IMG/VR virus record: IMGVR_UViG_3300036853_000446
Span: 186,001-250,000 of that record
Length of the DNA stretch: 64,000 bases
Reading direction: 5' to 3' (one strand)
DNA from: a virus
Made by a program: the position numbers and the translations under genes. Shown here piece by piece: positions 9,743 through 49,176 of this stretch. How positions within the stretch are numbered: the stretch's first letter is position 1; the number at the start of each line of letters is the position of its first letter. A model generated the notes under the pieces. The model had not been told where the DNA came from, did no database searches, and was given only the letters and a program-made list of their open reading frames with translations.

Positions 9743-9748
9743 GGTGTA
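9743..9748 (+). promoter_or_regulatory. Motif A, plus-strand half of divergent pair
   Basis: CCGGTGTAG ends 11 nt before ATG 9760. Back-to-back with the leftward copy at 9722-9727. Confidence 0.6.
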
Positions 9749-17371: not shown

Positions 17372-17655
17372 CCGTAACGCATCTCGAGACGACCCTCCGG
17401 TTCTACTTCGACCGCTGGTCGCGGCACTTTCCAGCCGAACGCATCGACACCGACGAGCTGTTCCCGGCGGGGGACCGTGACAAGGCGATGCGGCACGCGA
17501 TGTGGATGTGCGAGGTCTCCCTCGGCTTCATTCGCGACGGTCAAGCCGGCAAGGCAGACCGCTGGCTCGGCTTCGTTCAGGGGGTTCTATGGGCTTGTGG
17601 CCACTACACGATCGACGAGATGCGAGTCCACAGCACCGAACCCACCGAACCCTAG
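17368..17655 (+). CDS. Hypothetical protein, 95 aa
   Basis: Helical (TLRFYFDRWSRHFPAERID, then AMWMCEVSLGFIRDG and RWLGFVQGVLWA). It begins in the ATGA overlap with the DUF5662-like gene, so the two are co-translated. Ends 4 nt inside the convergent gene. Confidence 0.65.
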   Translation: MTVTHLETTLRFYFDRWSRHFPAERIDTDELFPAGDRDKAMRHAMWMCEVSLGFIRDGQAGKADRWLGFVQGVLWACGHYTIDEMRVHSTEPTEP

Positions 17656-17945
17656 GTATCGCTCAGGCGCTCGACCATACGCACGTGGAGTTGATCCATC
17701 TTCGTCTGCAGCGAGGGCCCCGTACCGCGACGTTCTTCGCACTTGCGGTCCTCGCGGTGCGGGTGGTGCCATAACTCGAGCACGGGACGACCCATGCCCG
17801 CGATTACAATGAACGCTCCACAGTTTTCGCAGATGTACTTGGATTGACCGAGATCAAATCCGTGGACCATCGTGAATTTGTGACCAGCAGCTTCCAGGTC
17901 ATCCCAGTCGATTTCCTGAACTTCCTCTTCGGTTGTTTGCGCCAT
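17652..17945 (-). CDS. Zinc-finger protein, 97 aa
   Basis: Contains SKYICENCGAF and, after 17 residues, LWHHPHREDRKC, a possible C2-H/C zinc site. The acidic N-terminus (EEEVQEIDWDDLEAAG) is probably flexible. Function unknown. Convergent with the 17368 gene. Confidence 0.6.
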   Translation of the reverse strand: MAQTTEEEVQEIDWDDLEAAGHKFTMVHGFDLGQSKYICENCGAFIVIAGMGRPVLELWHHPHREDRKCEERRGTGPSLQTKMDQLHVRMVERLSDT

Positions 17946-18002
17946 GGGTGGCTGCCTCGCCGTATCGAGAGTGTTGAGAATCCTCTTGTGTGTCGGCTGG
18001 TT

Positions 18003-18056
18003 GGGGCCCGTCGGAAGCAGTCATGATGGGCGGCCGTCCCGACAACGACGGGCCCC
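18003..18056. repeat. Inverted repeat, 11-bp arms
   Basis: GGGGCCCGTCG (18003-18013) is perfectly complementary to CGACGGGCCCC (18046-18056). The 32-nt loop includes GGGCGGCCGTCCC, itself able to fold. It lies in the gene-free stretch 17946-18352 and could be an operator, RNA stem or bidirectional terminator without a U-run. Confidence 0.55.
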
Positions 18057-18146
18057 ACCAAATAACCTAGGAGAGACATCGCCGGATCGCAAGCAGCACG
18101 GTGCACCGAGCACGGTGAGGGGACGATCAGGGGGAGGCTCCGGCGC

Positions 18147-18152
18147 GGTGTA
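18147..18152 (+). promoter_or_regulatory. Motif A before the structured non-coding element
   Basis: CGCGGTGTAT with no gene start within 25 nt; instead the first strand of a 14-bp RNA stem begins at 18163. By the spacing seen at genes, a transcript would start near 18158-18163. Confidence 0.5.
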
Positions 18153-18159
18153 TGAGAAC

Positions 18160-18315
18160 GTTGCCCAGGCCGGGCGACTAGAGTCGTGGGAGAACCGCGG
18201 ACACGTTCAAATTTGCGTCATTGAACACGCCTGGCCTGGGCACCTCTCTTTAGGATGGCTGCACCAGCTCGTACCATCGCTTAGAATGCCCCTTCGGGGC
18301 TCCCGACGAGCTGCC
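18160..18315 (+). ncRNA. Candidate structured small RNA
   Basis: Two folded domains. Domain 1: 18163-18176 (GCCCAGGCCGGGCG) pairs with 18228-18241 (CGCCTGGCCTGGGC) over 14 positions with one G-U. It encloses a GTTCAA/TTGAAC hairpin (18205-18210 with 18221-18226) and a possible GAC-TAGA-GTC hairpin. Domain 2: AGCTCGT (18266-18272) pairs with ACGAGCT (18306-18312) around GCCCC-TTC-GGGGC (18288-18300). No protein-like reading frame covers it, it is not a tRNA cloverleaf, and motif A lies just upstream. No poly-U terminator is visible. Confidence 0.5.
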
Positions 18316-18352
18316 TCTTGAGTTCCGTCTGTCGAGGGGCTACGAGAGAGCG

Positions 18353-18826
18353 ATGGGGTTTGTGGGCCGATTCGCCGCGTCATGGAAAACCGGCGCTCGA
18401 AAGCTCACCGCGGCAATCGTTATATTTGGGCTCGCATGCTCCATCGAGCAGCTCGTCTCTGGCCCGGTCACGTTGACGGGCGAGTGGACGACCGTGACAC
18501 CCCCCGAGCCGCTTCGAGTCGCCGGCAAAGGGCAACAGGTGGTCTGCCTGCAGGTCGTTGGCACACTGAGCGATGTTGACTTTAAGAGAGGCGCCGCGCT
18601 CGTCAACGGACAGTGGCACGTGCTCGCGGGAGAAGCCGTGGACGCCGAGCAGACGAACTACCCCCTCCAGGTCGGAGATCAGGGCGGCAACACAACCTGC
18701 TTATACCGTGCCGGGGAGCATCCTCCCGGGCCCGACTTTCCCGGGGATATCGTCAAACTCCGCCTTCGCAGCGAACCGCCGCTTCAGCTCGAGGGGATCC
18801 GGTGGCATTCCTACGATCAAAAATGA
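18353..18826 (+). CDS. Exported or membrane-anchored hypothetical protein
   Basis: 157 aa. An N-terminal hydrophobic segment (about residues 17-35, LTAAIVIFGLACSIEQLVSG) may be a signal anchor, or a lipobox-like LACS site. The rest is beta-rich with two Cys that could form a disulphide in the periplasm. Located 12 nt upstream of the YiiX-like hydrolase on the same strand. Confidence 0.6.
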   Translation: MGFVGRFAASWKTGARKLTAAIVIFGLACSIEQLVSGPVTLTGEWTTVTPPEPLRVAGKGQQVVCLQVVGTLSDVDFKRGAALVNGQWHVLAGEAVDAEQTNYPLQVGDQGGNTTCLYRAGEHPPGPDFPGDIVKLRLRSEPPLQLEGIRWHSYDQK

Positions 18827-18838
18827 GGCAACAGACCC

Positions 18839-19462
18839 ATGCTCATATCCGTTAATACGCTGCGCCCCGCCGACATCATTGTCAGTACGACGGATGCTAC
18901 AATTTCCGCCGTCATTCGTGCGGGCACGGGGTCTTCGGTCAGCCATTCGATGATTTACGTCGGAGGCTCGGCCGTTATCGAGGCCATCGAGAGAGGGGTG
19001 CTCAGACGATCGCTCACGGACGCTTTCGACGATGCCGTCCTTGCGATCGCGCTACGTCGCCGCAACCTCACCGAGAAGCAGCGTGCCGACGTCATCAAGT
19101 ACGCAACCCAGTTCATGTTTAGACCTTATGACGTTCTTGGCGCCGTGGGCTCCGGCACCAAGACGGGCAGGGGTGGTTTTCTCGCGGGGTTCGGTTGCTC
19201 GATCAGTCTGATGTTCTGCGCGGCTGGAACGGCGGAAATACGCGAAAACGCCAAGCCCGAGAACGCGGACAAATCTTTCTTCTGCTCTGAGCTGGTCGCC
19301 CGATGCTTCGAGCTGGCGGGAGCGCCCGTGGTCGATGGCTTGCCTTCGTTCACCGCGCCGCGACACCTTCGAGTCGCGAACACGCTCTATTATTTGGGCA
19401 AGCTCGTGGATACCCCCGTCCCCGAGCAGGAGGACGGGATTGCTCTCGGGTCGCCGATGTAA
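18839..19462 (+). CDS. YiiX/YebB-like permuted NlpC/P60 hydrolase
   Basis: 207 aa. LRPADIIVSTTDATISAVIR, then SHSMIYVGGSAVIEAIERGV and FFCSELVARCFELAGAP follow the permuted papain-like amidase pattern: the conserved His is in VSHSMIYVG and the catalytic Cys in FFCSEL. Such enzymes cleave amide or ester bonds in peptidoglycan or lipids. A hydrophobic stretch near residues 115-130 (GFGCSISLMFCAAGT) may associate with membrane. Probably co-transcribed with the exported protein before it. Confidence 0.75.
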   Translation: MLISVNTLRPADIIVSTTDATISAVIRAGTGSSVSHSMIYVGGSAVIEAIERGVLRRSLTDAFDDAVLAIALRRRNLTEKQRADVIKYATQFMFRPYDVLGAVGSGTKTGRGGFLAGFGCSISLMFCAAGTAEIRENAKPENADKSFFCSELVARCFELAGAPVVDGLPSFTAPRHLRVANTLYYLGKLVDTPVPEQEDGIALGSPM

Positions 19463-22129: not shown

Positions 22130-23661
22130 TCAGTCGGTCCCTTTGATCGAGCACACGGGGTAGAGACGGTTCGCGACGCGCGCGATCCCGCACTGCTCGA
22201 GCACGGATAAAACCTCGTCGAGGTCCTTGTAAACGTGGGCGCACTCGTCGAGTGGGGTCTTCTTGTAATTGCCAACGATACCCTCGACCGTGACGCCCGC
22301 GAAGGTTCTTTTGACCGTCGCCATTTCGTTGTCGATGCGGGCCTGCTTGTGCTCAAATTTGTTCTTAGCCTTGCCCCGCGCCATGAGTCGGCCCGAGCCA
22401 TGATTCACGGAGCAGCCCGCGCCGTACGCCCCGGCGAGCGGGAACAGGATCGCGGCGCCCGTGTACATCGAGCCCGGGATGAGGCAGGGGTGGCCCGTGG
22501 TTTCCCATCGGGACCCCGCGAGGTCGGGATGCCCGGCGGGGAAGGCACGTGTCGCCCCTTTCCGATGGACGAAGCCCTTCTTCGTCGTGCCGTCGGGCAG
22601 CACCAGGGTTTCCTGCTGCACGAGGTTGTGACTGATCTCGTAGTAGACCTCGCCCTGGACGTCGAAGACTTCCTCGAGCGCCTCTTGAATCCCTTGCACG
22701 ATGATGTGCCGGTTGGCGATCGCGTAGTTGGCGGCCGAGTTGTGGTACGCCCAGTATTCCTTGCCGAGGGGCTCGTCGGCGCGAAGCCACGAGTCCTCGC
22801 GGCGCTTCATCGGGAGCCCACGGAGGCGGGCACCTTCGATGAAGAAATGATCGGCGATCTGGTGACCGTAACCGCGCGACCCGCAATGCACCATGACCCA
22901 GACCTCTCCCGTGTCACGGTCGCACTGAAGCTCGACGAAATGGTTACCCCCGCCGACGGACCGAGCTGAGGCAGGGCTCGTTTGCGTGCAGTCTCGACCT
23001 TGTCGAGGTCTAGCCCGTCTTGAATGGGTATGTACTGCCGCTCGCAAACGTCCGCCTTGACGCCCAGCGGCTTGGCGCCGTAGCGCAGGATCTCGTCGAG
23101 CTGCGTGTCGTTGAAAGTCTGCATCATCTCTACGCGGTGCGAGCCGACGCCGGTTGCGATGCGCTTCTCGACCTCGCTGATCCAGCGCCCGCGGCGCTCT
23201 TTGCTCTGGACCTTCTTTGCCGAAAGTCCGGGCACCTTTAGGGACAAGATCCCGCAGTTCACGTCGTACCCTGAGCCCGCCTGAATGAGCGTGTCGTCGG
23301 TGACGATCACGCTGCCCACCGGGACGCCAAAGCCAACATGAGTGTCAGGCATCAGGTACGCGCCAGTAACTCCTTCATAGGAAGCTCCGTTTGCGATCTG
23401 CTGCCAGAGCCCTTCGTCCGACGCCGCATAGAGCGCGTCCGACAAGAATGCGTGGACCTCGGTCTTCATCGAGGCCACCTTGGGCAGGACGTAGTGATTC
23501 TCGCCGGTCTTCACCGCGGTGTATTTGAAGGACATGAGCGCGCGAGGTGTATACTCCAAAGATTCGTGGACTACCACTGTCGGCGCCCGCTCCTCCTGAG
23601 TTTGGCGCCCCACGAATCGCTCGACCGCGTGTTTCGTAATGATCGGTTGGGAATCATGCAT
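22130..23661 (-). CDS. rtcB: RtcB tRNA-splicing/RNA ligase, with a frameshift
   Basis: RtcB joins 2',3'-cyclic phosphate or 3'-phosphate RNA ends to 5'-OH ends with GTP and Mn2+. The first half (ATG 23661, MHDSQPII) carries AYLMPDTHVGFGVPVGSVIV and GSGYDVNCGI, with the metal-binding Cys and Asp. The second half carries SVGGGNHFVELQ, MVHCGSRGYGHQIA, GYGAGCSVNHGSGR-type segments. The frames meet near 22958-22968: LPQLG runs into PSAG instead of SVGGGNHF, as if GGTTCCGTC had become GGTCCGTC. Restoring one base gives a protein of about 510 aa. Motif A lies 12 nt before ATG 23661. Confidence 0.85.
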
Positions 23662-23673
23662 CGGAGATTCGCT

Positions 23674-23679
23674 TACACC
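23674..23679 (-). promoter_or_regulatory. Motif A upstream of rtcB
   Basis: ACCGGTGTAAG on the minus strand ends 12 nt before ATG 23661, fixing a start that was otherwise ambiguous among several upstream codons. Confidence 0.6.
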
Positions 23680-23705
23680 GGTAAATCTCCTCGAGCGTCG
23701 CGTCC

Positions 23706-23733
23706 GGATCAAAACCCGTGTGTGGCCCGTATT
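23706..23733 (+). promoter_or_regulatory. Motif B upstream of the 23742 gene
   Basis: GGATCAAA, 13 nt, CCGTATT, then 8 nt to ATG 23742. It is divergent from the rtcB motif A 27 nt away. Confidence 0.55.
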
Positions 23734-23741
23734 CGGCATTG

Positions 23742-24623
23742 ATGATGAAGGATTATGCAATCCAGCGCCCGGGCAAAGAACAGAAGGGGCGATCGTTCCG
23801 AGCCACCTGTGTTGCCGTTGCGACGGCCAACAGCCTTTGGGATGAGGGGGGCAAGGATGGCGCGATCCGGCCCGTCTGGGCGATGTTTGCGGGGACCGAA
23901 CAAGAGCTGCGCCCATTTGTGGCCAACCTCAAATCGGGGCGTAAAGCCGAACCCGCCGAGCAATTTTGGAGGGGCGGCGACAATGAGCGCTTCGAGTTTC
24001 TGCGCTCCGTCGGATTCGTCGCGTCCTGGCAGCGGGAAGCCGAGGGCTCCCTCGTGACGCTGTTTCATCCGGAACTCTTTCGACTCGATCCGGGGCTCAT
24101 CGAACCCTCCACTATTCGTTTCCTCCTGTTCGTTCCATCGGATTGGTCGGACGCGCAGCGGGTCGACGTCGCTAGTGCCGTTCGACACGTGCAACCGTTG
24201 GCGCCAAAGCTCGAGGAAGGTTACCTTTCCAGTCTGGTCCCGACGGCCTACCTCTTTGCTGCCTATCTCGACCGGCGCACGCGCGCGCCTCTGGTGGCCG
24301 ACGGCCGCTTCTACCTGCAGCTACTCCTGTCGGCTCTCGACCAGGGGCTCGCGTCTCTCCCGGGGAGAGACATCAAATACAACCGTTCCTCCCGTGACCA
24401 GTGGGGATTTCACAATGGTCACGGCTTCGATTTCGAGATGGGTGGCTCGAGCTGGAGTCCGCTCGGAATCGACTCCATCGGGCTCGCGCACGTGATCTCT
24501 TTCAACTCGACGCACACCGTTTTCGAACAGTTCCTCGCCGAGCAAGTGACCCAATATTTCGCCCGCGTGAAGGGCAAGACGCGGCGCGGGAAGATTGACC
24601 TTTCCGCCTTTGCCGCCGGTTGA
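23742..24623 (+). CDS. Hypothetical partner of the methyltransferase-helicase, 293 aa
   Basis: Not recognised. Features include FRATCVAVATANSLWDEGG, RFLLFVPSDWSDAQRVDV, a helical core (YLQLLLSALDQGLASLPG) and GFHNGHGFDFEMGG with a His cluster. The basic C-terminus (RVKGKTRRGKIDLS) may bind nucleic acid. It is immediately upstream of the 1231-aa fusion and has its own motif B. Proximity suggests joint function (inference). Confidence 0.65.
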   Translation: MMKDYAIQRPGKEQKGRSFRATCVAVATANSLWDEGGKDGAIRPVWAMFAGTEQELRPFVANLKSGRKAEPAEQFWRGGDNERFEFLRSVGFVASWQREAEGSLVTLFHPELFRLDPGLIEPSTIRFLLFVPSDWSDAQRVDVASAVRHVQPLAPKLEEGYLSSLVPTAYLFAAYLDRRTRAPLVADGRFYLQLLLSALDQGLASLPGRDIKYNRSSRDQWGFHNGHGFDFEMGGSSWSPLGIDSIGLAHVISFNSTHTVFEQFLAEQVTQYFARVKGKTRRGKIDLSAFAAG

Positions 24624-47338: not shown

Positions 47339-47345
47339 GATTTAT

Positions 47346-47397
47346 GTACCGGCAGCTGTAACACTTCCGGCTCGCCGGTTGTTACAGCTGCCGGTAC
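47346..47397. repeat. Perfect 18-bp inverted repeat (hairpin)
   Basis: GTACCGGCAGCTGTAACA (47346-47363) and TGTTACAGCTGCCGGTAC (47380-47397) are perfect reverse complements. The 16-nt loop contains CCGGCTCGCCGG, which folds again. Each arm includes the palindrome CAGCTG. It ends 22 nt before ATG 47420. Candidate operator, recombination or resolution site, or replication element. Confidence 0.75.
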
Positions 47398-47419
47398 GTT
47401 CCTGAGTACCAATGGGGGA

Positions 47420-48109: not shown

Positions 48110-48142
48110 ACTAGGGTTTTGCGCCGGAATGGGAGACTGAAC
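48040..48142. repeat. Iteron-like direct repeats (ACTGAAC x4)
   Basis: ACTGAAC at 48040, 48074, 48105 and 48136, spaced 34, 31 and 31 bp. Flanking bases are also partly conserved (TTGCGCCGG before the third and fourth copies). Three helical turns of spacing put all copies on one DNA face, as for initiator or regulator sites. Confidence 0.55.
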
Positions 48143-48173
48143 GGCGCCGAATCCGCCTTCGGAGCGCATCGCG

Positions 48174-48395
48174 ATGGGCTTTTTCTCACGCTGGTTTGGG
48201 CCCCGTCCGGGCGGATCCGAGCGTCCCGAGCCCGTCGCAACCCTCCCAGCGCCGCCACCCGCGCCGTGGTGTCCGAGCTGCGGGCGCTCGGAAGGGGTTC
48301 TCAGCTCGACCCGGGATGCCTACGGGCGCTACTGCACTCGGTGTGGGCACGGGTGGCAGGTTGACGGCGTCGTTCCCGAGGGGCTCGAGCCGTGA
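48174..48395 (+). CDS. Zinc-ribbon protein with membrane-binding-like N-terminus
   Basis: 73 aa. MGFFSRWFGPRPGGSERPEP (aromatic/basic N-terminus, then Pro linker), followed by WCPSCGRSEG and YCTRCGHGWQ, a complete zinc ribbon. Begins 31 nt after the last ACTGAAC repeat. Confidence 0.65.
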   Translation: MGFFSRWFGPRPGGSERPEPVATLPAPPPAPWCPSCGRSEGVLSSTRDAYGRYCTRCGHGWQVDGVVPEGLEP

Positions 48396-48471
48396 CGTCC
48401 GCGACGCGACACCCGAGCACCCCGCCGCTGACGCCCTGAGGGGCCTCCTCGAGCGCCCGCGGGCGTCGGGT

Positions 48472-48501
48472 GCACCGAGCGACGGGAGGGGCGCTCGGTG
48501 C
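48472..48501 (+). terminator. Hairpin after the 48174 gene
   Basis: GCACCGAGC (48472-48480) pairs with GCTCGGTGC (48493-48501). A 12-nt loop and no U-run. May be a terminator or a regulatory inverted repeat. Confidence 0.4.
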
Positions 48502-49070
48502 CTGTAAACGGGCTGTGGGAGCCTCCGGGGCGATGGGCGCGGCGGAGGTCCCTTGGGCGCCCGCGTTTCTCTTGGGAATACGTCGCTTTCTGTAAAAACC
48601 GCGCCGTTGTTTCGTCTCGTGCCGGCCCATTTTAGGTTACTCTCACTCGTTTCGGCGCACGGGCGGGGTCATCTCGTTTCTGACTGAGACACCCAGCTCG
48701 GTGCCGCCGCCCTCAGCGAAGCTCGACTCCCCGGCAGCGAGCGGCTCAAAAGGTCCGCGCGCGCCCTTCCAAGATGGGAGTTAACGGCGCGCCACCAGAA
48801 AACAGCGGCGGATTGGATACTCTGGTCACCCCTCAGGTACCGCTTGTTAATGCGCTCCGGGCTCAGTCGTTTTCGATTGACATTCGACAAATAGCGCTCC
48901 CCCCGGCGCCCCTTCTTACTGGACGCGCAATCGGCCCAACGGCCATGAAAAGAATGAGCAAATCGGCCGGTCGAAACTGGCCTTAACGCAGCCCTAACTG
49001 AGACTTGGCCGACCCGCCGGTTTGATCATTCCTGCCTCCCCCCTCCGACCCGGCCTTCGGCCCTGGTCTT
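48502..49070. other. Gene-poor region
   Basis: Short open frames on both strands (48669-48890 minus, 48774-48986 plus) have no coding character that I trust. No motif A or B. Composition is variable. Confidence 0.5.
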
Positions 49071-49071
49071 T

Positions 49072-49176
49072 AGGGTCGAGGCGTCGACCCTCCCGCTGTC
49101 TCGTTAGGGGTCGAGGCGTCGACCCTCCGGATCCCTGTCTTGAGCCGTCGCCGGCCTTAGGGTCGAGGCGTCGACT
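49072..49176. repeat. Three copies of palindromic AGGGTCGAGGCGTCGACCCT
   Basis: Copies centred near 49082, 49117 and 49169 (the last with only TCGAC of the right arm). Each has AGGGTCGA/TCGACCCT arms with a GGCG loop and can form an 8-bp hairpin. The third overlaps the stop codon of the 50041 gene. Possible terminator array or mobile palindromic repeat. Confidence 0.6.

Follow-up and report, generated by a model that had tools for sequence, protein, structure and literature searches.

Background

Leaders of the T4 gene 32 type are structured phage 5' untranslated regions with translational control. In the jumbo phage AR9, long untranslated regions have been proposed to control translation (PMC5312081). 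A single-stranded 5' end is required by RppH and RNase E and preferred by the Bacillus enzymes, and stems at the 5' terminus stabilize mRNAs (PMC3997798). The folding of a single sequence is, however, no proof of a functional RNA (PMC8250186).

The DNA analyzed here (the window) is a stretch of 64,000 nucleotides, positions 186001-250000 of a 407,634-base virus record. The major capsid protein of this virus shows 83% identity to that of the uncultured phage LR745208.1 (485 kb), about 49% to that of Tunturiibacter phage Tunturi_5 and 40% to that of Bacillus phage G, and relatives of it are encoded by at least 468 IMG/VR stretches. Judged by these relationships, the source is a huge tailed phage belonging to a large, mostly uncultivated family. 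About 30 tRNA genes were predicted in the record, away from the gene of an RtcB-like RNA ligase (PF01139) at window positions 22807-23916 (minus strand). The window also holds a stretch of 1 kb (48110-49156) that is apparently non-coding and unusually dense in inverted repeats, and that ends beside three 19-nt direct repeats at 49070, 49105 and 49157.

An element at 18147-18315 had been described as a structured non-coding RNA driven by a sequence called motif A. From its sequence features, motif statistics and predicted folds we infer that the element may instead belong to a two-gene operon (18353-19462) as its structured 5' leader, with motif A at 18147 as the promoter. The probability that we give to this reading is about 0.45.

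Results and Discussion

Motif A as a signature of leaderless genes

The entry in the original prediction gave no definition of motif A, which was re-derived here as CGGTGTA with a start codon about 10 nt later. In the 407-kb record the pattern GGTGTA-N8..11-ATG was found 53 times, against 3 matches for the reversed-pattern control. The distance from GGTGTA to ATG peaked at 9-11 nt in this genome, GTG codons peaked likewise, and C preceded 80% of the GGTGTA copies at leaderless genes. Examples in the window, with GGTGTA about 10 nt before ATG or GTG, lie at 9743, 16648, 31611 (minus strand), 39528, 45034 (minus strand), 59086 and 62335. At about half of all GGTGTA copies in the genome, no start codon follows at promoter spacing.

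The pattern was also matched in 48 of 50 related records, usually far above control (51 versus 3, 50 versus 0 and 73 versus 12 are examples from the larger ones), and GGTGTA was the top hexamer before ATG in most genomes examined. Enrichment was weaker in LR745208.1 (29 versus 11), there was a slight excess in Bacillus phage G (13 versus 5), and Tunturi_5 showed no enrichment (6 versus 5 in the control). On these counts, GGTGTA about 10 nt before ATG or GTG is a signature, shared across the family of huge phages related to LR745208.1, of genes that appear leaderless, and the promoter role originally proposed for motif A is strongly supported by the 53 to 3 ratio and by a like enrichment in the majority of the larger related records. 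Such a pattern would be expected of a promoter that serves leaderless mRNAs. A search of the literature for GGTGTA together with phage and promoter found nothing. The signature, which is a firmer product of this analysis than the RNA itself, should allow transcription starts and leaderless genes to be predicted from sequence alone throughout a large uncultivated family of huge phages.

In one relative (G032) GGTGTA was found 12 nt upstream of one predicted tRNA gene (L246:8647-8719, minus strand) and 10 nt upstream of another (L249:114-188), which suggests that the 5' end of a tRNA can also be the start of a motif A transcript. As a general precedent the tRNAs were set aside, since these two were the only ones with motif A spacing among several hundred, too few for enrichment.

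The copy of interest, CGGTGTA at 18146-18152 (plus strand), is predicted to be a phage promoter core by the motif statistics of this genome; no gene starts at promoter spacing after it. Ten nt past GGTGTA, where leaderless genes carry the A of ATG, lies G18163, the predicted transcription start and also the first base of a 14-bp stem. The earlier proposal that motif A would place the 5' end of the transcript at the stem agrees with this spacing. If transcription begins at 18163, as this spacing predicts, the stem would fall within the 0-2 unpaired bases from the 5' end that are typical of 5'-terminal stems. The motif list contained no other GGTGTA between the divergent gene (17652-17945) and position 18353. 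It is possible that the GGTGTA at 18147 is a chance copy, because roughly half of all copies are not at start codons.

Domain 1 and its stability

The 14-bp stem (18163-18176 with 18228-18241, one G-U pair) was present as originally described and exceeded all shuffles. The account of its interior was incomplete: the 6-bp hairpin reported there (18205-18210 with 18221-18226) was found, and a second one (18183-18189 with 18195-18202) had been overlooked, so that domain 1 (18163-18241, plus strand) is a predicted three-way junction. The minimum free energy of this 79-nt domain was -43.8 kcal/mol, whereas shuffles averaged -26.0 (z = -5.6), and 0 of 200 shuffles folded as well. No stem of this strength arose when 18163-18315 was shuffled 1,500 times or when the entire intergenic region (407 nt) was shuffled 400 times, so that, as in the 5'-terminal stem-loops that stabilize mRNAs, the stem is more stable than expected by chance. 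The predicted fold was unaltered in every longer context. The sense strand was more stable than the antisense strand (-43.8 versus -35.3), in part owing to a wobble pair that is G-U on the sense strand alone.

Only one copy of the element occurs in the genome. Among the stems of the roughly 51 kb of intergenic DNA, its domain 1 stem is the fourth strongest; the strongest is a 20-bp near-perfect hairpin, ATGTACCGGCAGCTGTAACA, at window positions 47344-47399. The intergenic region of the element has another inverted repeat at 18002-18057 (12 bp, TGGGGCCCGTCG/CGACGGGCCCCA, loop of 32), upstream of the divergent gene 17652-17945.

Coding potential

The original prediction held that no reading frame covers the element. 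In fact an ATG open reading frame of 125 codons (17944-18321, plus strand) spans all of it, and the element could on that ground be part of a protein gene. The codon score of this frame is -0.109, however, compared with a mean of +0.184 for long open reading frames, its product had no Pfam or PHROGs match, its start overlaps that of the divergent gene 17652-17945, and no motif A lies at promoter spacing before its ATG. A protein gene is therefore very improbable here, and the practical conclusion of the earlier claim holds, as the frame looks non-coding.

Homologues and look-alike loci

In agreement with the original statement that the element resembles no known RNA family, Rfam 15 gave 0 matches in the window at the curated threshold, and a search at gathering and permissive thresholds yielded no accepted family (best sub-threshold E value 0.17). 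That best match, to the Guanidine-III riboswitch (RF01763) at 18283-18343, scored 16.9 bits against a gathering threshold of 36 and was taken as chance. ARAGORN detected 0 tRNA or tmRNA genes in the window. Integron attC sites carry a GTTRRRY core, and this assignment was rejected by inspection, as the repeat lacks such a core.

When 50 related records were searched with the element by BLASTN, only fragments of 14-19 nt were returned, and the best of them, in G041, was no more than the GCCCCTTCGGGGC hairpin. A covariance model built from the single sequence recovered the query alone from 51 related records. The pattern of motif A plus the outer P1 stem matched 7 times among 2.9 million viral contigs, about the number expected by chance, and 0 of these matches lay in a motif-A-rich neighbourhood. 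Nearby proteins used as anchors revealed no relatives of the locus in viral or genome contigs; Peptidase_C92, encoded downstream, was discarded as a synteny anchor because it is absent from 38 related records. None of these approaches (Rfam, BLAST, covariance model, patterns) found a homologue that could reveal covariation.

A descriptor search for motif A followed by a flush stem in intergenic DNA identified look-alike loci in four relatives: G002 (L151:5547), G005 (L170:5853), G010 (L200:4898 and L200:16406) and G012 (L232:10518). The stem arms of the two loci of G010 (GGCAGGGCCC...GGTCCTGCCAC) are nearly identical while their interiors differ, and the loci are probably paralogous structured RNAs. 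A good terminator-like stem and T run (GGGGGAG-ATTTTT) come after the one at L200:16406. When used as DNA queries, the look-alikes found homologues only in their own genomes, except that the G002 locus also has an identical copy in G003.

The frequency of strong stems at predicted motif A starts was compared between GGTGTA and permuted control words. There were 5 stems against 1.4 expected in the first six genomes and 1 against 1.3 in the four fetched later. Over the ten family genomes the excess (6 versus about 2.7) was not significant, and therefore no RNA class is claimed. It is doubtful that this locus and the look-alikes of G002, G005, G010 and G012 exemplify a functional class of fast-evolving stable RNAs launched by the leaderless promoter of the family, each with a long flush stem around a structured core, in which architecture would be conserved without sequence.

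The null explanation is that the inverted repeat acts at the level of DNA or is incidental, as a binding or recombination site, a replication-linked hairpin or a relic that lies near GGTGTA by chance and has no RNA function. In its favor are the missing family-wide significance of the association between strong stems and motif A, the large share of GGTGTA copies away from gene starts, the 41 stems of moderate or greater strength in the intergenic DNA of the genome, and the repeat at 18002-18057, which shares the intergenic region of the element. On the other hand, the spacing from motif A equals that of gene starts exactly, the predicted fold is more stable on the sense strand than on the antisense strand, and the element is present once, unlike a repeated binding site. 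We consider a DNA-level or incidental repeat unlikely.

Downstream operon and end of the transcript

The intergenic region extends from the divergent gene to gene 18353-18826, which lies 37 nt beyond the end of the element. This first gene of the operon (plus strand, 157 aa, codon score 0.18) has GAGAGAG just before its ATG and encodes a possible membrane anchor; it had no Pfam or PHROGs match. It is closely followed by 18839-19462 (plus strand), coding for a 207-aa Peptidase_C92 protein of the YiiX-type permuted papain-like group (PF05708, E value 1.4e-8). The C92 gene was found in 0 of 38 related records tested, and on this distribution the locus looks accessory.

No U-run terminator was found after the element. 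The sole terminator-like match is the weak, U-poor tail of domain 1, ACCTCTCTTT, which has 5 T in 8 and whose stem was scored on 5 pairs only; shuffles of the region gave a mean of 1.5 such matches by chance. As there is neither another motif A nor a U-rich terminator, transcripts from motif A probably run on into operon 18353-19462. The predicted leader would be 190 nt long, in a phage whose motif A genes are mostly leaderless.

These observations bear on the main rival explanation, a free-standing phage small RNA of about 80-150 nt made from motif A. This RNA would act in trans and end either behind domain 1, at ACCTCTCTTT, or behind domain 2. Stable small RNAs typically have a stem flush with the 5' end, and domain 1 does end in a stem and a T-containing tail. 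Moreover, to judge from the terminator-bearing locus of G010 and the two tRNA genes of G032, the family may also use motif A for non-coding RNAs. Against this stand the low U content of the tail and the chance frequency of such matches, the absence of a homologue, and the fact that the downstream operon would be left without a recognized promoter unless this motif A serves it. A small RNA is the leading rival, but we consider it unlikely. The part of the original prediction that made the element free-standing fits less well than a leader, since no U-run terminator precedes a gene only 37 nt away and this is the sole motif A available to the operon.

Distal leader and start codon region

The second domain (18266-18312, plus strand) was found in the minimum free energy fold of the isolated 153-nt stretch as originally drawn, with AGCTCGT (18266-18272) paired to ACGAGCT (18306-18312) and enclosing GCCCC (18288-18292) paired to GGGGC (18296-18300). 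It depends on context: in longer transcripts that include the downstream gene the outer helix was lost to other pairings.

The leader also contains CCATCGCT at 18274-18281 (plus strand), whose 8 nt perfectly complement those of AGCGATGG, the start codon region, at 18349-18356. Helices of at least 8 nt over the start were found in 25 of 3,000 shuffles (0.8%). In partition-function folds the CCATCGCT/AGCGATGG pairing had a probability of 0.47-0.93, according to the 3' end chosen, and near zero if folded to 18450; start codon masking was recognized post hoc and its outcome depends on the length folded. The start region was mostly paired, with a partner that varied with length. A rival of masking is the predicted hairpin at 18253-18279 (plus strand), formed by GGATGG (18253-18258) and ACCATC (18273-18278).

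Proposed function of the leader

Motif A would normally initiate transcription at the AUG or 1-2 bases from it, giving a leaderless mRNA. Initiation at G18163 would instead produce a transcript that begins flush with the 14-bp stem closing the three-way junction. A 5' end held inside a stem without single-stranded overhang may resist pyrophosphohydrolase and 5'-end-dependent RNases, and the transcript would then be long-lived. The distal leader (18242-18352) could in turn tune translation, either by pairing with the start region (CCATCGCT/AGCGATGG) or by folding on itself (GGATGG/ACCATC).

The leader reading is favored by a stem at the exact motif A start spacing, by a domain 1 that is beyond chance and stable in all contexts, by the sense-strand preference and by the rarity of the 8-nt complement of the start region among shuffles. 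It is weakened by the empty homologue searches and by stems that were not significantly commoner at motif A than at control words. If the RNA is real, this giant phage uses a leaderless promoter to begin the transcript of an accessory operon, which carries a papain-like enzyme, directly with a protective or regulatory stem.

Comparison with known leaders

Like the ompA and papA leaders of E. coli, the leader proposed here would carry a stable stem at its extreme 5' end, without overhang and upstream of a translated gene. It differs from them in its larger three-way junction, in belonging to a huge phage and in arising from a promoter that otherwise gives leaderless mRNAs, and its stabilizing effect is a predicted one. 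The proposed leader has no known regulator and no shown sequence or structural homology to leaders of the T4 gene 32 type or the long untranslated regions of AR9, but it shares with them a phage leader structured near the translation start, here with possible masking of the start codon.
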